From NCBI GenBank assembly GCA_020721585.1, contig DYMK01000010.1, forward strand, positions 1 through 64,000: 64,000 nucleotides of DNA. Reading direction: 5' to 3'. Below are positions 53,098-64,000 of the stretch, in pieces. Under the pieces are notes generated by a model. That model saw nothing but the letters and a program-made list of their open reading frames with translations, ran no database searches and was not told the DNA's origin. The number at the start of each line of letters is the position of its first letter. Position 1 is the first letter of the stretch. Origin of the DNA: Sulfuricurvum sp. Its GTDB lineage: Bacteria; Campylobacterota; Campylobacteria; Campylobacterales; Sulfurimonadaceae. The position numbers were made by a program, and so were the translations under genes.

Positions 53098-56000
53098 TCA
53101 ATACTGCTTGTGTTTGATAAAACGTAATAATGAGGGCATCAACATAAGTAAGATAAAGGTTCCAATCAACATCCCCCCCACAACGACAATCGCCAAAGGT
53201 TTTTGAACCTGACTTCCCACCCCCGTCGCAACCATCGCAGGAAGTAATCCAATGGAGGCAGTTAATCCCGTCATCAAAATAGCACGAAACTTATCCGAAG
53301 CGGTTTGGGTAATGGCTTCATCAATGCTGAGTCCATGTTTGGAAAGTTGTAAAAAGTGGATAACAAAAATAGAAGCATTGAGGATACTTACCCCAAGGAT
53401 GGAGATAAATCCAACCGAAGCCGAAACACTCAGCGCTTGACCAAGTAGCAATAAAAAGAATAGTCCCCCAAAGACCGAAAAGAGTGCCGCAGTGAGGATG
53501 ATAAAGGTGTTTTTAATCGATCCAAAGTAGACAAATAAGACCAACGTAATTAAGAACAACGCTGCTGGGGTCATGATTTTTAAGCGACCAAAGGCACTTT
53601 GCATCTGTTCAAACCGTCCGGAGAGATCGGTTAAATACCCATCGGGCATTTGAACGGTTTTGATTTGCTCTTGGACTTTGGCAACGGTTCCGGCCAAATC
53701 GTTTGAGGCGACCGAAAATTTAATCGGGATAAACCGTTTAAAGTTTTCACGGTAGACAAATGAAGCCCCCGTATCGTAATAGATATGGGTGATTTTAGAG
53801 AGGGGAATAATGGCACCATCATCTAATACCACAGGAATTGCTTTGATGTTTTCAATACTCTCCCGATAATTATGGGGAAAACGGACGACCAAATCAAATC
53901 GCTTATCTTGTTCAACGATTTTGGTGACGGCGCGACCATCCAGTGATGAGGAGACAATGTCCATGAGGTCAACAACATTGACCCCATACAAGGCTGCTTT
54001 TTCCCGTTCGACTTCGACAATCAAACTGGGTTGTCCCGTCTCTTTGAAAATCCCTACGTCAGTGACCCCTTCTACTTTTTTAATTTTTTGTTCAATTTCT
54101 TTGGCGAGTTTGTCCAAAACATACAGATCGTCTCCGAAAATTTTAACCGAGTTTTCCCCTTTTACCCCAGACATCGCTTCAGCGAGATTGTCCTCGATGT
54201 ATTGAGAGACACTGATGTCGGCATTGGGAAACGCATCGCGTAAGGTGGTTCGGACTTGATCTTCAAGTTCCTCTTTGGTAATACCACGATGCCATTGGCT
54301 GTAATCTTTAAGTTTAATAAAATATTCACTGTTAAAAGGGCCTGAAGGATCGGTTCCATCTTCGGGTCGTCCCGCTTGGAACTCAATGGTTTGTATCTCA
54401 GGGTATTTTTTGAGAATATCGCGTATCTCTTTGGAATTTTGATAGCTTTCACTAAGGCTAATCGAATAGGGGAAAATAGCGCGGATATACATATTTCCTT
54501 CATCCATTTTGGGCAAAAATTCTGACCCCAACATGGTAGAGATAGCCAAGGTTAAGACGAAAATAGCACCGGTTGCCATGAGTGCCATTTTGCTGCTAAT
54601 GCGGGCAATGGTATCCATGTATTTGTTTTTAAGCCACTCTAGGGGACCAAAGACTTTTTCATGGGAATTGAGCAAAAAGATGTATTTGCCGGCCATAAGA
54701 AAACTAAAGGTGAGGATAAAGGCAAAACTAATCGCATAGACATAGGTTTTTGCCATGGGTAAAAAGATTTGAGACTCTGCCCCTTTCATCGCGAAGAGGG
54801 GGATAAAGGCAAGAAAGATAATGAGAATGGAGAACATAATGGGTTGACCCACTTCACTGGCGGTTTCCAAAATCGCAGGGATATGGTGTCGCCCTTGGTG
54901 CTTGAGCCTAAAGTAGTTTTCGATGACGATAAGGGGAATATCGACGATAATCCCAAAGTCAATGGCTCCCAGTGAGAGGAGATTGGCCGATTCTTGTTGA
55001 TACGCCATCAAAGCAAGGGTATAAAGTAACGACATAGGGATAATGGCGGAGACGATCAGTGCTGCACGTAAATCCCCCAAAAAGATGAGGATAATGACAA
55101 AAACCAAAATCATCCCCTCAGAAGCAGTTCCTTTGAGCTTTTCGACAACGGTGTGAAGAAGGTCTTGACGGTCATAAAAGGGGACAACTTTAATGTCTTT
55201 GGGGAGAATGCCATTATTAAGGGCATCAATCTTATCGTGGAGTATCCCCATGGTAGAGACACTGGGGGCATTTTTACGTAAGACGACTACCCCCATAACA
55301 ATGTCATTTTCATCGTCCAAACCCGCAATCCCCGTTCGGGGCATGGAGGAGATGGCTACGTCGGCAATATTTTTGATATACACAGGGTGACCATTAATGG
55401 TGCTGACAATGGTATTACCAATATCTTTCGTCCCTTTGATGAGTCCAAGACCCCGAATGGTATAGTATTGGTCTCCAAATTCCAAAACCCGTCCCCCAAC
55501 GTTTTCGTTACTGTTGGCAAGGGCTTGAATAACGGTATGCAAAGGGATTTTGTACTTCACCAGATCATCGGGGCGGATGACGACCGTATAGGCTTTAATC
55601 TCACCGCCATAACTTCCAATATCGGCAATATTGGGGACGGTTTTAAGATAGCGCGAGACAACCCAATCTTGATAGGTACGCAGTTCGGTCATGCTTCGAT
55701 TGCCAACGACACGGTAACGCATAATCTCCCCAATAGCACTGGGGATAATAGAGGGGGTTACCCCTTCGGGAAGTTCAGCTTGTTGCAAACGGTTGAGTAC
55801 CTCTTGACGGGCATCTTTGTAGGCAACATCGTACGAAAATTTGCATTTAATATCCGAAAGACCGTACAAAGAGACGCTGTTGACATTTTCCAAGCCGGGC
55901 ATCCCCGCGAGGGAAACCTCTAGGGGGGTAGTAATTTGCTTTTCGATCTCTTCAGCGGAGCGTCCATCGCTTGTGGTGACGATTTCGAGAATGGGGGGGG

Positions 56001-56124
56001 CGGGATCGGGGAACGCTTCAATATTAAGATCCCGAACCACAGCAATACTAATAGCGATCGTAATTCCCGTAAAAAGGAGAATGGCGAGAAAATTATCGAT
56101 CAAAAAGTTGGCAAGTCGACGCAT
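53098..56124 (-). CDS. RND efflux transporter, heavy-metal (CzcA/HME) type
   Basis: A protein of 1008 residues from ATG at 56124, which has AAGGAA just upstream; a start ten codons earlier overlaps the adaptor gene. The 12-helix RND plan with two large periplasmic loops is evident. Helix 4 reads DFGIIVDIPLIVIENY near residue 400, giving the D-x5-D-x6-E pattern of CzcA (D402, D408 and E415 in the Cupriavidus protein), which marks the metal-cation branch rather than drug pumps. Yet the G-A-V that normally follows the second aspartate is I-P-L here, so the substrate may differ. Last gene of a four-gene operon. Confidence 0.9.
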   Translation of the reverse strand: MRRLANFLIDNFLAILLFTGITIAISIAVVRDLNIEAFPDPAPPILEIVTTSDGRSAEEIEKQITTPLEVSLAGMPGLENVNSVSLYGLSDIKCKFSYDVAYKDARQEVLNRLQQAELPEGVTPSIIPSAIGEIMRYRVVGNRSMTELRTYQDWVVSRYLKTVPNIADIGSYGGEIKAYTVVIRPDDLVKYKIPLHTVIQALANSNENVGGRVLEFGDQYYTIRGLGLIKGTKDIGNTIVSTINGHPVYIKNIADVAISSMPRTGIAGLDDENDIVMGVVVLRKNAPSVSTMGILHDKIDALNNGILPKDIKVVPFYDRQDLLHTVVEKLKGTASEGMILVFVIILIFLGDLRAALIVSAIIPMSLLYTLALMAYQQESANLLSLGAIDFGIIVDIPLIVIENYFRLKHQGRHHIPAILETASEVGQPIMFSILIIFLAFIPLFAMKGAESQIFLPMAKTYVYAISFAFILTFSFLMAGKYIFLLNSHEKVFGPLEWLKNKYMDTIARISSKMALMATGAIFVLTLAISTMLGSEFLPKMDEGNMYIRAIFPYSISLSESYQNSKEIRDILKKYPEIQTIEFQAGRPEDGTDPSGPFNSEYFIKLKDYSQWHRGITKEELEDQVRTTLRDAFPNADISVSQYIEDNLAEAMSGVKGENSVKIFGDDLYVLDKLAKEIEQKIKKVEGVTDVGIFKETGQPSLIVEVEREKAALYGVNVVDLMDIVSSSLDGRAVTKIVEQDKRFDLVVRFPHNYRESIENIKAIPVVLDDGAIIPLSKITHIYYDTGASFVYRENFKRFIPIKFSVASNDLAGTVAKVQEQIKTVQMPDGYLTDLSGRFEQMQSAFGRLKIMTPAALFLITLVLFVYFGSIKNTFIILTAALFSVFGGLFFLLLLGQALSVSASVGFISILGVSILNASIFVIHFLQLSKHGLSIDEAITQTASDKFRAILMTGLTASIGLLPAMVATGVGSQVQKPLAIVVVGGMLIGTFILLMLMPSLLRFIKHKQY

Positions 56125-56125
56125 C

Positions 56126-57193
56126 TTATTCCTTTTCCATCGCAATAGGCTCACGGGCTATAATGGCGTGTTCTGGAAGCCCTTTAATGAGTGAAAAGTT
56201 GTCTCTTGGATTATCGCTCACAAAGGTAATAGTTAGGGGTTCAAAGATATCTCCTTTCCCCTTTTTAACAAAGACAATAAATTTTCCTTCTTTAAAAAGT
56301 ACCGACTCTTTGGGGACACGGAAAACCCCTTTCTTTTCTACTGCAAGGGTGATGGTCGTAAACATATTAATCCGTAAATCGGGAGAATCGACTTGGGGCT
56401 GAATGTACACTTTGATTGTTTTGTTTTCAGAATCCAATAAATCACTCACATAGGTAATTTTCCCCTGAAGATGTTTTGTTCCCGCATCATCCAAAGCAAT
56501 ACTCACCTCTTTACCCACATAAAAAGCTTCAATGTCTTTTTCGTAGACAGTCGCTACTACCACTTTTTTGTGAGTATTGGCAATGCGCATCAACGGTTTT
56601 TGGGTATCGGTGGTCACTTTTTCCCCCAAATGGGTTTCCACTTCATAGACAACTCCTCCAATGGGGGAACGAAGGGTGAGGTTTTGATTGGAAGAAGCAC
56701 CCAAATAGTTGAGTTTTTGAGAAACCCCTTTCATTGCCGCTTGGGTTTGTTGAAACGTACTTTGGGAGAGGGCAAGGTCGTTGGCAGTTATGGCACCCAG
56801 TCTAAAGAGTTCTTTGTTCATCTCATAGACGTGTTGCGCTTGCGTTAGGGCCGCTTTGGCAGAGAGTTCATCACTTTGGGCATCACTGACATCGGAAGAA
56901 CGGATACTCATAAGAGCCGAATTAGCGGAGACTTTATCCCCTACTTTGGCATGGATAGTAGAGACAATTCCACCCACGGGTGCGCTAATAGAGACGATCC
57001 CATCGGGGGAGGGTTGAACCGATGCGGTGGCCGAAATTTCAACGCTATAGTCACCTAAAATAGGAGAGACAACCTCTTTAAGTGTTTTTTGTGCCTTGGT
57101 AGCTGGATGGGCATTTTCAGCTTCCCCTTTGGTACATCCAGAAAGTAAAATCAATGCGGTGACGCATGAGAGGGTAAGAAGAGAAAAACGCAT
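56126..57193 (-). CDS. RND periplasmic adaptor (membrane fusion) lipoprotein
   Basis: A protein of 355 residues. Lipoprotein signal with LILLSGC (cysteine near 20). A biotinyl-lipoyl-like half (ISAPVGGIVSTIHAKVGDKVSANSAL near 68), a coiled-coil hairpin (about 100-160), the second lipoyl half (LRSPIGGVVYEVETHLGEKV near 170) and a beta-barrel domain follow in the usual order. It bridges the RND pump and the outer-membrane channel. The ribosome binding site AAAGGA lies inside the 3' end of the upstream channel gene, whose stop overlaps this ATG by one base. Confidence 0.9.
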   Translation of the reverse strand: MRFSLLTLSCVTALILLSGCTKGEAENAHPATKAQKTLKEVVSPILGDYSVEISATASVQPSPDGIVSISAPVGGIVSTIHAKVGDKVSANSALMSIRSSDVSDAQSDELSAKAALTQAQHVYEMNKELFRLGAITANDLALSQSTFQQTQAAMKGVSQKLNYLGASSNQNLTLRSPIGGVVYEVETHLGEKVTTDTQKPLMRIANTHKKVVVATVYEKDIEAFYVGKEVSIALDDAGTKHLQGKITYVSDLLDSENKTIKVYIQPQVDSPDLRINMFTTITLAVEKKGVFRVPKESVLFKEGKFIVFVKKGKGDIFEPLTITFVSDNPRDNFSLIKGLPEHAIIAREPIAMEKE

Positions 57194-58437
57194 TAATGTC
57201 CTTTTAAATCGGTAAGTAATTGTCCGGAAGCAAGCTTCAACTGTGCACTGCTGATATGGAGATCAATCGTGGCTTGAATAAGGTTTTTTTGGTAATCACG
57301 GTAACTTTTTTGGGCATCCAATAGCTCAAGGATGGACATCCCCTTGAGGGTAAATATTTTTTCATGGTTCTCTTTGAGGTTTTTAGCGGAGTCAAATCCT
57401 GCTTTAATGGATTGAAGAATTCGTTGACGTGATTGGGTCGCCTCGTAGGTTTGCACTAAATCCGATTGAGCATTACGGGTCGCTTTATCGTAGATATGAA
57501 CTGCCTGAAGGGTTCCGATGCGGGCTTTTTCAATTTCCCCTTCGTTGCGATCGTACAAAGGGAGGGGTAGGGAAAAATTCAACCCCGCCAAAGGTTCGTA
57601 GTAAGGGCCAAAACTGGCGTATTCCATACCAACGTTGATGTTGGGGACTCCATTGGCTTTTTCAAGGCGTAGTGAGGCATCGGCAATGGCGAGATTTTCT
57701 TTGGCAGCTTTACAATCGGGACGATGAGGCACTTTGGTTAAGAGTGTTTCCAAGGGAGGGATCACCTCGGTCACCGTGGGAGCTACAACGACCGTTTCGG
57801 AGGAGGGGAGTGCCAATAATGCTGCGAGTTTTTCCCGATCTTGCAGTAGTGCAAGATGGCTATTTTCCACCTCACGCGTGTACTCATTTTTTTGAAGAAG
57901 AATTTTTTGGTAATCCATCGCCGAGAGGAATCCATGGTCCAATTTAATTTTAGCAACACTAATAATACGGTCGTAAGCTTGGGCATTTTCGTGCGCCATC
58001 TCAAACGTCGTTTGGTCACTTACTACCGCATAATAGGCACTAATAAGGGTATAAAGTTGTTCCCGAATGGTCTCATCAAGCAGCAGACCATTATAATTGA
58101 CGTAACGATTGGCTAACTCAATCCGTTTATCCCTTTTTCCTGCGGTTTCGATAGGGTGGCTTAGGATAAGGGTCGCTTGTCCATTGGAACCCCGTGCGGT
58201 ATCGCTAAAGCGACGATTAATGTCCATAAATTCATACGATCCCAAAAGGGTTGGATTGGGACGTTCTTTGGCAGTGATAAGATTGGCATACGATTTTTGG
58301 GCTTCGTGGCGAGCAATATTAAGGTCATAGTTGTACGCTACAAACTGTTCAATTGCGTTATCTATGGTCAAGGTATCTCCCAACAGGGGAAAAGAAACGA
58401 GTAACAGGGTAAAAAGAGTACATTTGGCAATACGCAC
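57193..58437 (-). CDS. Outer-membrane efflux factor 1 (TolC/CzcC-like)
   Basis: A protein of 414 residues from GTG at 58437, chosen because AAGGAA lies seven bases upstream and the signal peptide (TLFTLLLVSFPLLGD) then starts correctly; the longer frame adds 29 residues with no such features. Two OEP repeats with long coiled-coil helices are visible (NAIEQFVAYNYDLNIARHEAQKSYANL, then a FSLPLPLYDRNEGEIEKARIG middle strand). It forms the trimeric exit duct. It is a full-length paralogue of the neighbouring channel gene. Confidence 0.88.
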   Translation of the reverse strand: MRIAKCTLFTLLLVSFPLLGDTLTIDNAIEQFVAYNYDLNIARHEAQKSYANLITAKERPNPTLLGSYEFMDINRRFSDTARGSNGQATLILSHPIETAGKRDKRIELANRYVNYNGLLLDETIREQLYTLISAYYAVVSDQTTFEMAHENAQAYDRIISVAKIKLDHGFLSAMDYQKILLQKNEYTREVENSHLALLQDREKLAALLALPSSETVVVAPTVTEVIPPLETLLTKVPHRPDCKAAKENLAIADASLRLEKANGVPNINVGMEYASFGPYYEPLAGLNFSLPLPLYDRNEGEIEKARIGTLQAVHIYDKATRNAQSDLVQTYEATQSRQRILQSIKAGFDSAKNLKENHEKIFTLKGMSILELLDAQKSYRDYQKNLIQATIDLHISSAQLKLASGQLLTDLKGH

Positions 58438-58526
58438 AGGATGATTCCTTAAAAATATGGATAAAAACGATGGTACAAGTATAGTGGAACTATTGTGAAG
58501 TTTAGATGAATTTTGGGTATACATTA

Positions 58527-59777
58527 TTACTCCTTGATAGAGACTGGAGTGATGCCAGCCATAAGTTTGAGATACTCTTGTGCAATCATTAAATCAATAG
58601 ATGAGCGAATTACGTTACGTTGATAATCATTATGTCTCCGTAAGTTATCCAATAAATCTAAAATTGGCATTCCTTGACGCTCAAAAATGAGATGATGTTT
58701 GCGTTTAAGCTGATTAATGGCATTGAATTCTTCTTGTGTCGCACGGGATACTTTTTGTTGTGTCTTATAGAGGATAAATGCCTGAGTGACATCGGATGCG
58801 ACTTGCTGACTAATTTTGCTTTGGTGCGTTTTTGCCTGCATTAGGGTCACTTTAGCGCGTTCAATTGCCCCTTGATTGTGATTGTAAAGGGGTAGGGGGA
58901 TTGCTGCACTCACCCCAAGAAGGGGATTGGTGTAATTGGGTGCATACTGTTCACTCTCAATGCCTAACGTTATGTCCAAAACGGCATTGGCTTTTTCAAG
59001 ATCAATCGAAGCTTTGGCAACAGTAACATTTTGAATGGCTGCTAAGCAATCGGGGCGATGGGTTTGCGCATACGCAATGAGTTCATCCAAAGAGGTCGTT
59101 ATATCGGTAGGTGTAGGGGAAATTTCAGGAATCTGAAGGGTGTTAGCGTCTAATGAAAGCATCATGGCAAGGGTTTCACGATCGGTTAAAAGGGTCGCAT
59201 GGATAATTTCAACCTCTTTGTTGTAATCCATTAATTGGAGATCTAACTCTTTTACGTCAACATCATCAATGAGTTTATGAGCAAATTTTCCCTGAGCGAT
59301 GGTGAGGAGTTTAGTAAAATTATGACGGTTATTAAGGACATTGTGATAGTGCGCTTGATCCGCTTGTGTTTGATAATAGACATTGAGAAGATTGATCAGG
59401 GCTTGGCGTTTGTTCTCTTCGACGAGTAATTGGGTGTAATGTATCATCTCATGAGCGGTTTTGATCCGCTGATCCCGTTTTCCCCCCAACTCAATGGGGT
59501 GATCCAAATGGGCAACCAAAAAAGCAGGACTCCCTTTGGCCTGATCTCCAAATTGGTGTCTAACATCCAAAAAGCTGTAACTTCCGTAGAGGATGGGATT
59601 GGGACGACGTTGTGCACCAAGGAGATCAGCTTTGGATTTATTAATTTCATACTGGGCAATTTTCAGATCATGATTATGGGATAACAATCGCTCAACGGCA
59701 TCGTGAAAGGTCAATTCAGCACAAAAAGCGTGTGAGACAATCACGAAGGAAATGAATAGCAAACGGACTAAAAACAT
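58527..59777 (-). CDS. Outer-membrane efflux factor 2 (TolC/CzcC-like)
   Basis: A protein of 416 residues from ATG at 59777, which has AGGAAGG about seven bases upstream and begins the signal peptide (LVRLLFISFVIVSHAFCA); the longer frame to 59861 has no site. Same layout as efflux factor 1: AVERLLSHNHDLKIAQYEINKSKADL, the RPNPILYGSYSFLDV segment, a SAAIPLPLYNHNQGAIERAKV strand and a LDLLDNLRRHNDYQRNVI end. It is the first gene of the operon, 89 bases ahead of factor 1, and faces cbpA. Confidence 0.88.
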   Translation of the reverse strand: MFLVRLLFISFVIVSHAFCAELTFHDAVERLLSHNHDLKIAQYEINKSKADLLGAQRRPNPILYGSYSFLDVRHQFGDQAKGSPAFLVAHLDHPIELGGKRDQRIKTAHEMIHYTQLLVEENKRQALINLLNVYYQTQADQAHYHNVLNNRHNFTKLLTIAQGKFAHKLIDDVDVKELDLQLMDYNKEVEIIHATLLTDRETLAMMLSLDANTLQIPEISPTPTDITTSLDELIAYAQTHRPDCLAAIQNVTVAKASIDLEKANAVLDITLGIESEQYAPNYTNPLLGVSAAIPLPLYNHNQGAIERAKVTLMQAKTHQSKISQQVASDVTQAFILYKTQQKVSRATQEEFNAINQLKRKHHLIFERQGMPILDLLDNLRRHNDYQRNVIRSSIDLMIAQEYLKLMAGITPVSIKE

Positions 59778-59876
59778 TAAAAACCTTCCTCTCATTTTTT
59801 TAAACTCTGAAGAAGATTTTAGCGTAGCAATTGTGTTGAAAAATGATAAGAAGTTGTGCACCGTTGGATTTTTAAC

Positions 59877-61907: not shown

Positions 61908-62120
61908 GTTACTAAGGCTTCCCCATCGGGAGATGGGGAAGCAGTAAAGATCAACGTTGATCTCACCCACGCCCAGACCAACCCAACCCTATTAAAACAG
62001 CACTATCACCTCACCCAACCCTTTATCCATCTGCATTCGCACCTGAAACTGGTACTTTCCCCTCAAGGAAGTCACAGCCATTTTGAGATGCAATCGGACG
62101 TAATGCCGCTTGCTTTTTGA
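61908..62120 (+). pseudogene. Possible gene remnant after ung
   Basis: About 70 codons without a stop in one frame, ending at TGA 62118-62120, with protein-like features (AVKINVDLTHAQTNPTLLKQ, then FIHLHSHLKLVLSPQGSHSH). There is no ATG, GTG or TTG start at its head and the frame is closed by a TAA directly upstream. It could be the tail of a decayed gene or chance. Family not recognised. Confidence 0.25.
61917..61942. repeat. Perfect 11-bp stem-loop after ung
   Basis: GCTTCCCCATC, loop GGGA, GATGGGGAAGC. No T-run follows on either strand, so it is not a standard intrinsic terminator, although so strong a hairpin should stabilise the 3' end of the cbpA-hspR-ung mRNA. Confidence 0.7.
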
Positions 62121-62130
62121 CACGATAAAC

Positions 62131-62159
62131 GTCTCACCCTGAACGGGATTCGGGGTCTA
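62131..62159. repeat. Dispersed palindromic repeat, family B, copy 3 (diverged)
   Basis: GTCTCACCCTGAACGGGATTC then GGGGTCTA. Same frame as the copy at 53034 with a changed loop and one changed arm base. Confidence 0.6.
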
Positions 62160-62174
62160 AAAAGAAGCTCATTA

Positions 62175-62423
62175 CTATTTTTCTTTTACCTCAACATTTT
62201 TGAGAGAGATGTTTTTTGTCTTTTTGTCAGTTGACTTGCTAACATTGTCATAATGTCCTGAAGGTAATGTTTGTCCACCAATAGTAACGCCACTGTTTGA
62301 ATTCATCATAAGTGAATTTTTTGTCTCTTTATGATGGCTAATTATGGTCACATTTTCTAAGCGCACTTGATCTGCTACAAGCACACTCATACTCAAAAGC
62401 ATACTCAATACACTTTTTTTCAT
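62175..62423 (-). CDS. Small exported protein C of the right-edge cluster
   Basis: A protein of 82 residues. The signal peptide spans about 1-17 (MKKSVLSMLLSMSVLVA). The mature part is Asn/Ser/Lys-rich: VRLENVTIISHHKETK, then the motif NSLMMNSNSGVTIGGQ near residue 37, and a KNISLKNVEVKEK end. The start overlaps the stop of protein B (ATGA). Its Shine-Dalgarno AGGAG lies within the last codons of B. I do not recognise the family. It shares the S-L-x-x-N-S-x-T/S-G-V motif with A and B. Confidence 0.65.
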   Translation of the reverse strand: MKKSVLSMLLSMSVLVADQVRLENVTIISHHKETKNSLMMNSNSGVTIGGQTLPSGHYDNVSKSTDKKTKNISLKNVEVKEK

Positions 62424-62911
62424 TTTCGTTTTACTCCTGTATTAATATCAATCAACGTCGAATTTTGGAGATTTTGACGATTGGTAATATCCGCATTGTA
62501 CGTTTGATGATCATTCCTCTGGGATTCACGCTGATTTTCATGATGATCTCGACTAAAAAAACGCGTATCGACATGATCCATCGTGACCACATTGGTTACC
62601 TCTTTATTCGTTAAATTTTCACCAACAACACCAAGATTTTGCCCTTTTTTCAGCTTCACATTGCTGATATTAACCACATGAACAATTTTTTCGCGGTGGT
62701 TCCCCGCATCCAATTCTTTTCCTAAACTACCGCCTTTGCTTGCTAATGTCCCCTCTAGCTGTCGTTGATTCGTAATATTGACATAATCATACGTGACCCC
62801 ATTGTGGGTTTGTCCATTGAGTCTTCTGGCTTTTTGCATCTCCAACGTAGTATCGTAATCTTCAGCATTAAGCAATGCGGATAATACGCTCATTAGTACT
62901 ATTTTTCTCAT
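62420..62911 (-). CDS. Exported Asn-rich repeat protein B of the right-edge cluster
   Basis: A protein of 163 residues from ATG at 62911, chosen because a signal peptide (MRKIVLMSVLSALLNAED) begins there; the longer frame overlaps protein A. The mature part has loosely repeated units (YVNITNQRQLEGTLASKGG, then VVNISNVKLKKGQNLGVVG and ENLTNKEVTNVVTM). It ends with a His/Asn/Arg-rich stretch, ADITNRQNLQNSTLIDINTGV and KRK. The Asn-rich beta-type repeats recall surface fibres or adhesins, but this is only an impression. The gene starts one base after the stop of A. No family recognised. Confidence 0.65.
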   Translation of the reverse strand: MRKIVLMSVLSALLNAEDYDTTLEMQKARRLNGQTHNGVTYDYVNITNQRQLEGTLASKGGSLGKELDAGNHREKIVHVVNISNVKLKKGQNLGVVGENLTNKEVTNVVTMDHVDTRFFSRDHHENQRESQRNDHQTYNADITNRQNLQNSTLIDINTGVKRK

Positions 62912-62912
62912 A

Positions 62913-63593
62913 TTAGTAGTGTACTCCTGTCTCTGAATTGAAGAGTAATGATTTTTCATCAATAAAAATATTTTGATGTAGGATATTATTGTTGTGTTCA
63001 TCACGATCATTGCGTTGTTCATAATGACCTCGTTGAGGCGTATCCCCGTAGGAAGCTTGATTTTTGATATATTTTAAATTGATCTCATCCAACAGTCTAT
63101 TAATTTCCATTTGGTTATTTTGTGCATTGGCGATGGAAGTTAATACACCATTTGTGACAAGATTGTATTTTATGAGGGATAAAGGATAACGCTTGAGATC
63201 CATTTGTCTTTTAAGCAATAAATCTACTTCGTAGTGAGTGAAAATTCTGATGGTAAAATTTTCAGGAAGAATGTCTTTGGTTAAAAATTGGTAATACGCA
63301 ATAGCCTCTTTGTAACCACTAATCACAGGATAGCAACCGGATATTTTGGCTTGAAGGGTGCGTAATGCGGCATAACTTTTTAACGCTTTTAGGCTATTAA
63401 TGCCATTTTGATAGTGACCGCATAAGGTAAGTTCTGTATCCGATGCAATCATGTGTTCCAATTGAACAAAAGCGTTGATCTCATTACCGTGATATATAGT
63501 ATGGGTGAACGTATCCTCATAGTCCTCCCCACGCACAAAAGTGGTGAGAAGAAGCGTCACAAAAAGGGCAACGTTAATATTTGTATATTTCAT
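62913..63593 (-). CDS. Exported protein A of the right-edge cluster
   Basis: A protein of 226 residues from ATG at 63593 (an ATG two codons earlier at 63599 is equally possible). Signal peptide about 1-20 (TNINVALFVTLLLTTFVRGED). The middle is helical with two cysteines (TLCGHYQNGINSLKALKSY and KISGCYPVISGY), then an ISIANAQNN-like turn and a tail rich in His/Asn/Arg (GHYEQRNDRDEHNNN) that ends SLLFNSETGVHY. The tail aligns with that of protein B. It begins inside the end of the upstream Sel1-like gene. Function unknown. Confidence 0.65.
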   Translation of the reverse strand: MKYTNINVALFVTLLLTTFVRGEDYEDTFTHTIYHGNEINAFVQLEHMIASDTELTLCGHYQNGINSLKALKSYAALRTLQAKISGCYPVISGYKEAIAYYQFLTKDILPENFTIRIFTHYEVDLLLKRQMDLKRYPLSLIKYNLVTNGVLTSIANAQNNQMEINRLLDEINLKYIKNQASYGDTPQRGHYEQRNDRDEHNNNILHQNIFIDEKSLLFNSETGVHY

Positions 63594-64000
63594 ACGCATC
63601 CCAAAAAATGACAGCATCCGCATTACCCTTTTGGGCAGCGTATTGGATGAATTTTTTCGCTTCACCCTTTTTGTCCAGTTTAAGGTAATAAATTTCTCCT
63701 ATACGATACGCTTGATAGGGAGAAACATGAAACGTTTTTGGGTCAATCATATAATGATTTTTGAGCAATATCTCCTCAACACGATCATAATTTTGATCGG
63801 CTAAAGCTTCTTGCAACGCCTTAACAAAAATAGCGGTATCATCGTGCGTTACTTCTGTGGTTTGCGCTACTGCCGGTTGAACAATAGTTACGTTGTTCTC
63901 TTTGGTTGTCTCTACTTTTGGAGGTGTAACCAGCGTTGCATTGTTTTCCTTAATTGGCTGAACCAATGGCATGGGAGAAACCATTGTCGCATTGACTTCG
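63574..64000 (-). CDS. Sel1/TPR-like protein with low-complexity N-terminal part (partial, runs off right edge)
   Basis: The frame is open through the right edge of the window, giving 141 visible residues plus one base. The visible N-terminal part is a repetitive Pro/Thr/Asn/Val linker (ENNATLVTPPKVETTKENN occurs as loose repeats). From about residue 50 the chain is helical, ending in a Sel1-like helix pair (AYRIGEIYYLKLDKKGEAKK, then YAAQKGNADAVIFWDAYEIY). Sel1 repeats are protein-binding scaffolds. It is the most upstream visible gene of the exported-protein cluster and overlaps protein A by about 20 bases. Confidence 0.7.
   Translation of the reverse strand, partial: EVNATMVSPMPLVQPIKENNATLVTPPKVETTKENNVTIVQPAVAQTTEVTHDDTAIFVKALQEALADQNYDRVEEILLKNHYMIDPKTFHVSPYQAYRIGEIYYLKLDKKGEAKKFIQYAAQKGNADAVIFWDAYEIYKY

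Follow-up and report, generated by a model that had tools for sequence, protein, structure and literature searches.

Curli are built by a system in which a CsgG-type outer-membrane lipoprotein is encoded beside small Sec-exported repeat proteins, with a regulator gene (that of the LuxR-type CsgD) heading the operon and with repeats of about 22 residues, each turn of the resulting beta-solenoid having two strands. A 2012 survey, which uses the curlin motif Q-x-G-x2-N, placed curli mostly in Proteobacteria and Bacteroidetes, with single strains of Firmicutes and Thermodesulfobacteria, and leaves the Epsilonproteobacteria unmentioned (PMC3521004). In HfaABD of Caulobacter, a CsgG-like protein can set curlin-like anchors on the cell surface (PMC6707917), and for C. 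jejuni, a protein with a CsgG domain is listed in a table of one computational study (PMC7284324). In the open-access literature, we found no paper on operons of the kind described below in Campylobacterota, nor one that treats curli, amyloid and Campylobacterota jointly. Fap of Pseudomonas exports via the FapF barrel and is not known to use a CsgG-type channel.

Here, we analysed a window of 64,000 nucleotides, bases 1-64000 of one contig (C14) of a 2.29-Mb Sulfuricurvum genome, together with the remainder of this contig, which runs to 67528. An operon at the right-hand side appears to build a curli-like cell-surface fibre and to bring along an export channel distantly related to that of curli. 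It shares with curli a probable CsgG-type lipoprotein beside small Sec-exported repeat proteins, the regulator gene at its head and, as predicted for a relative, the two-strand-per-turn solenoid. However, its regulator is a PhoB-type winged helix, its repeat unit measures 26-34 residues, and single units occur on accessory proteins. Furthermore, CsgE, CsgF and CsgC had no match among the operon proteins, and the Q-x-G-x2-N motif of the curlin repeat (X6-Q-x-G-x2-N-x10) is absent from P1, A, B, C and D of this operon (Table 1) as well as from ten relatives' repeat proteins, with no match to Curlin_rpt.

With HfaABD, the operon has in common a CsgG-like lipoprotein (the NCBIfam HfaB model matches a relative), the small gene set and, presumably, a short curlin-like surface protein. 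It differs in belonging to another phylum and in that no holdfast genes adjoin it, and the relative's HfaB match reaches 20 bits against a cut-off of 300. As for Fap, the repeat protein of a relative has the FapC fibril as its best, albeit weak, fold match, whereas no sequence relation was found. If our reading is correct, a surface-fibre route is added for vent and aquifer sulfur oxidisers, and the operon suggests that one repeat naturally serves as a modular tag for the recruitment of several proteins to a fibre. Its components escape Pfam and NCBIfam, such that annotation overlooks them.

Organization of the operon

An initial annotation of the window had described A, B and C as a co-produced set of exported proteins, perhaps forming fibres, with an exported partner upstream (D), and had proposed extending the contig to the right. 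This extension revealed P1, the lipoprotein and the regulator upstream in the same operon (Table 1; contig and window share one numbering, and genes past 64000 lie outside the window). In transcription order on the minus strand, the winged-helix regulator is followed by P1, the lipoprotein, D, A, B and C, and adjacent genes from the lipoprotein through C touch or overlap. The idea of a co-produced exported set with a homologous segment, probably fibre-forming and possibly with a helical-repeat partner, has held up in outline, but the key export gene, which lies beyond the window, had been missed.

Table 1. Coordinates of the operon genes, the repeat units within them and the flanking direct repeats
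Feature	Position	Strand	Description
Winged-helix regulator	66400-66086	-	PhoB-type, 104 aa, without receiver; Pfam Trans_reg_C E 7.9e-13
P1, two-repeat exported protein	65952-65599	-	117 aa
CsgG/HfaB-like lipoprotein (distant relative)	65543-64203	-	446 aa
D	64206-63574 (63574-64000 inside the window)	-	210 aa, exported
A	62916-63593	-	226 aa, exported; non-repeat body plus one terminal unit (SLLFNSETGV)
B	62420-62911	-	163 aa, exported, Asn-rich; one unit at the end (motif STLIDINTGV)
C	62175-62423	-	82 aa, exported; one mid-protein unit (SLMMNSNSGV)
Repeat unit, end of A	62916..62993	-	ACA GGA GTA is the Shine-Dalgarno for B
Repeat unit, end of B	62423..62509	-	ACA GGA GTA is the Shine-Dalgarno for C
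Repeat unit in C	62274..62375	-	profile E 4e-14 (in-sample); leave-one-out 0/5000 shuffles
Left 84-bp direct repeat	62092..62175	+	brackets the operon
Right 84-bp direct repeat	C14:66731-66814, beyond the window		98% identical to the left repeat, 4639 bp apart

All six products from P1 to C begin with a charged start and a hydrophobic core. In A, B, C and D, the start is positive and the core has a mean Kyte-Doolittle value of 2.2-2.5 over 12 residues, in agreement with the earlier reading of A, B and C as exported. The word exported is used here for proteins predicted as such from charge and the Kyte-Doolittle core. A had no match in Pfam or NCBIfam.

A repeat unit shared by four exported-looking proteins

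The ten-residue motif that the initial annotation had noticed in A, B and C (Table 1) withstood scoring against shuffled and decoy sequences. With a model made from the other proteins and 5000 shuffles of each protein itself (leave-one-protein-out), the scores of A, C and P1 were reached by none of the shuffles and that of B by three. Decoy frames taken from the window, 335 in number, all stayed short of the scores of A, B and C. Because the motif had been picked after the fact, an out-of-sample genome search is the better test. A profile built from the tails of A, B and C only was run against the whole 2.29-Mb genome in six frames and, beyond its three training copies, matched both P1 repeats (E 0.21 and 1.2); a single unrelated match (E 0.85) falls between these two, and nothing more was found up to E 10. 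The E values are modest, and the weight that the sequence matches may be given comes from their place: of 2.29 Mb searched, they fall within this very operon, at a distance of 2 kb. When P1 was added to the profile, the genome yielded no copies of the unit besides these five (next E 0.99). Further unit-bearing proteins hence do exist.

The unit comprises 26-34 residues and reads roughly V-x-V...I-x-N...[SA]-x-L-x-N-S-N-x-G-V-x-I-x-G. What had been called a tail is the repeat unit of a presumably fibre-type protein, doubled in P1 and single on A, B and C. The term tail is too narrow in any case, since P1 carries two copies and C carries its copy in the middle of the protein.

In A and B, the last codons of the motif (ACA GGA GTA) double as the Shine-Dalgarno sequence of the next gene, as originally observed, with ACAGGAG 12 nt before the start of B and 10 nt before that of C. 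This raises the question whether the ribosome binding site, or chance, could have produced the motif. The overlap does supply AGGAG in A and B, but in three of the five copies the G-V codons are different ones (GGG GTC and GGG GTT in P1, GGC GTT in C), with no ribosome binding site there and no start codon following. Conversely, ACAGGAG also precedes D, within the end of the lipoprotein gene, which has no unit. Moreover, seven of the ten motif positions fall outside T-G-V, and P1 was retrieved by the out-of-sample search. An origin from the ribosome binding site only is ruled out by the codon usage of the P1 and C copies, and we regard this whole explanation, chance included, as hardly conceivable. 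The double use is ordinary packing in a tight operon.

A probable distant relative of CsgG

On its own, the lipoprotein of this operon retrieved nothing relevant from Pfam (including CsgG, PF03783), NCBIfam or PDB, and NCBIfam HfaB did not match it. A first search over 200 genomes of the order yielded remote homologues, and a profile (A1) was made of the lipoprotein and seven relatives (eight rows). Among the genomes with strong relatives (see below), L088 comes from a Campylobacterota MAG, L089 from one of Sulfurovum and L090 from one of Nitratiruptor. In the lipobox, LLVGC closes the signal core; the G-C pair is invariant across A1, and L089 deviates. When A1 was compared with PDB sequences, the best five matches were all CsgG (top E 0.0017). 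Two relatives, L089 (23.5 bits) and L008 (22.5 bits), exceed the Pfam cut-off of 20.8 for CsgG, and NCBIfam HfaB matched L088 with an E of 3e-4 and 20.1 bits, which is far under its cut-off of 300.

The AlphaFold model of the L088 lipoprotein (pLDDT 65.5, pTM 0.65) retrieved CsgG (4uv2) first in a Foldseek search of the PDB (E 1.5e-6, probability 1.00), followed by PelC (E 8e-5). Throughout the family, a glycine-rich stretch is conserved where A1 aligns to the first membrane hairpin of CsgG, and some relatives' channels carry C-terminal peptidoglycan-binding-like stretches. Taken together, the sequence profiles and the predicted model suggest that the lipoprotein is a distant CsgG/HfaB relative, a link that runs through its relatives and not through its own sequence.

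Relatives in the Campylobacterales

Strong relatives of the lipoprotein (A1, E < 1e-20) were found in 13 of 399 genomes of the order, from nine genera. Weaker matches (E 1e-5 to 1e-3) are confined to the beginning of the profile, mostly signal and lipobox, and were taken as chance. Most strong relatives adjoin exported repeat proteins, with units such as VEVKKSVILNQTTMVGGKNTGNAGIAIKG in tandem next to the channel gene in L088, L007 and L090, GKNSRAQIGTVEIQKSSVKSSTVSNDSQAYHIKT in G038 and G022, and other kinds elsewhere. At eight of 17 channel loci, the adjoining exported protein has a significant internal periodicity (z 5-52, against a maximum of 2.6 among 84 control ORFs); others have irregular repeats or neighbours of a second type, P2.

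A first unit profile from three relatives gave P1 just 5.4 bits, composition-corrected, upon which shuffle controls and a broader profile were adopted. P1 then scored 37.9 bits against the relatives' units, which none of 2000 shuffles reached (maximum 15.0), and 24.3 bits against the two-repeat P1 of G223 and G026 (again 0/2000). A and C had no significant direct score against the relatives' unit profile and are linked to it only through P1. B is homologous to P2, which adjoins the channel gene in relatives, with 28.1 bits (E 9e-8 per 1000 sequences, 0/1000 shuffles) against a P2 profile built without B. Searching with the P1 profile furthermore reached G158, by a P1 with three repeats (E 8e-10), and G018, by its tandem protein (E 4e-5); matches in proteins of about 440 aa, which by length resemble beta-helix enzymes such as GlmU, were left uncounted. 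A single unit is also present near the N-terminus of DUF2807-like proteins, at 12.6 bits in the operon of L088 and at 15.5 bits in that of L090 (0/1000 shuffles each).

The C-terminal end of D looks like a helical repeat. Its designation as Sel1-like found no support in Pfam, where D lacks a Sel1 match, but in G158 a protein with Sel1 repeats (Pfam Sel1 E 1e-7) adjoins the three-repeat P1, and exported ankyrin proteins lie within the operons of L089, G026 and G223. An exported helical-repeat partner seems to recur across these operons, and D may be this genome's own version of it. The G026 and G223 operons (L019, L059) have two differing CsgG-like lipoproteins and an ankyrin protein in a row. 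In L088 (6855-8054) and L089 (6867-8126), the channel gene is followed by a recurring gene for an NMT1-like periplasmic binding protein with an OmpA-like-looking end.

The repeat protein of L088 is predicted to form a beta-solenoid in which every turn of 31-32 residues contributes two strands (residues 21-149, pLDDT about 95). Among PDB folds, the FapC amyloid fibril matches it best (E 5e-4, probability 0.33, low TM-score), and the E against the CsgA fibril is 0.19. PDB matches of the L058 repeat protein to pentapeptide-repeat proteins may reflect composition or another type of solenoid and were set aside. Since these fold matches are weak, and since beta-solenoid folds are also common in non-fibre proteins (PMC10192328), we infer fibre formation mainly from the CsgG-type partner. 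P1 itself has just two repeats; some of its relatives reach four to eight or more.

A model of the operon and its alternatives

The explanation that we consider best, and hold with moderate confidence, is that of a horizontally acquired curli-like operon with a CsgG/HfaB-type channel, P1 as a solenoid fibre or anchor, and A, B and C docked to it by their single units. The lipoprotein would form an outer-membrane channel, which would export small Sec-secreted proteins made of the 26-34-residue unit. Tandem units of the P1 type would fold as a two-strand-per-turn beta-solenoid and polymerise as the core of a surface fibre or anchor, and the single unit would dock A, B and C, with their other bodies, onto the P1 solenoid as nucleator, cap or decoration, comparable to the templating of CsgA by CsgB in curli. 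Adhesion or biofilm formation may be the purpose, presumably under the control of the winged-helix protein. A wider proposition, which we put forward tentatively and would not yet call probable, is that Campylobacterota have CsgG-dependent fibres with a non-curlin repeat, in which the single unit is a plug-in tag and brings exported proteins that otherwise have no relation to one another (A, B and C here, the DUF2807-like proteins in relatives) to the fibre.

An arrangement closer to a holdfast anchor, in which short surface solenoids tether polysaccharide instead of forming long fibres, would also accommodate a CsgG-like channel. Hfa employs the curlin-like HfaA, HfaD and the CsgG-like HfaB (PMC6707917), and a relative's channel matches NCBIfam HfaB (E 3e-4). 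The two repeats of P1, here as in G223 and G026, and the peptidoglycan-binding-like stretches on some relatives' channels would fit this as well. However, no holdfast or polysaccharide genes were seen in the operon, and those relatives in which the repeat number is four to eight or higher resemble fibre subunits more, such that we consider an anchor of this kind unlikely. A role of the single unit as a secretion signal that is read by the channel, like the N-terminal segment of CsgA, and not as a polymerisation module, could account for its single occurrence on differing bodies, both on A, B and C and on the relatives' DUF2807-like proteins. Yet the same unit forms the tandem repeat of P1-type proteins, and its position varies from the C-terminus (A, B) over the middle (C) to near the N-terminus (DUF2807-like proteins), unlike a positional signal; this role is very unlikely in our view.

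We give a slighter chance still to an ordinary periplasmic or cell-wall assembly without surface export, composed of a PelC/LPP20-type lipoprotein and periplasmic solenoids. It draws on PelC as the second fold match of the L088 model and on the periplasmic binding-protein and OmpA-like genes next to some relatives, but CsgG outranks PelC in the fold search, and the glycine-rich stretch aligned to the first membrane hairpin of CsgG is kept across the family, whereas PelC is not known to have this feature.

Acquisition and genomic context

The lipoprotein is absent from the 40 other genomes of the genus (present in 1/41), and among these 41 the cluster occurs in this genome only. Its GC content is 37.2%, against 44% around it, and it is bracketed by the two 84-bp direct repeats (Table 1), the core of which is dispersed over about 40 places in the genome. 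The absence across the genus, the low GC content and the direct repeats point to a horizontal gain of the cluster. In the eight relatives examined, convergent genes directly follow ung and recur between them. A search for matches in plasmids found none, and a phage tail origin was dismissed, with only sub-threshold Pfam matches (GpP-like 0.0085, S_tail_recep_bd 0.055).

Several features of the flanks deserve mention. To the left of the cassette, 220 bp (61947-62166) are 92% identical to C3:42997-43226, a segment that overlaps the 3' part of a 400-aa gene on the minus strand (C3:44255-43053), so that a duplicated gene end lies beside the insertion point. On the right, beyond the window, a plus-strand gene of the Cro/C1-type HTH class (C14:66478-66759; L003:4679-4960) ends inside the right direct repeat, and the left repeat keeps nearly the same C-terminal codons of this gene (SDVMPL-x-F stop), which indicates that the repeat includes the gene end. 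The contig ends 0.7 kb past the right side of the cluster; its final 55 bases (67474-67528) recur at the end of contig C34, which probably marks a break in the assembly graph. Elsewhere in the window, an efflux cluster (53098-59861), read from translations only, precedes chaperone genes and contains an RND pump, a membrane fusion protein and two tandem outer-membrane-factor-like genes.
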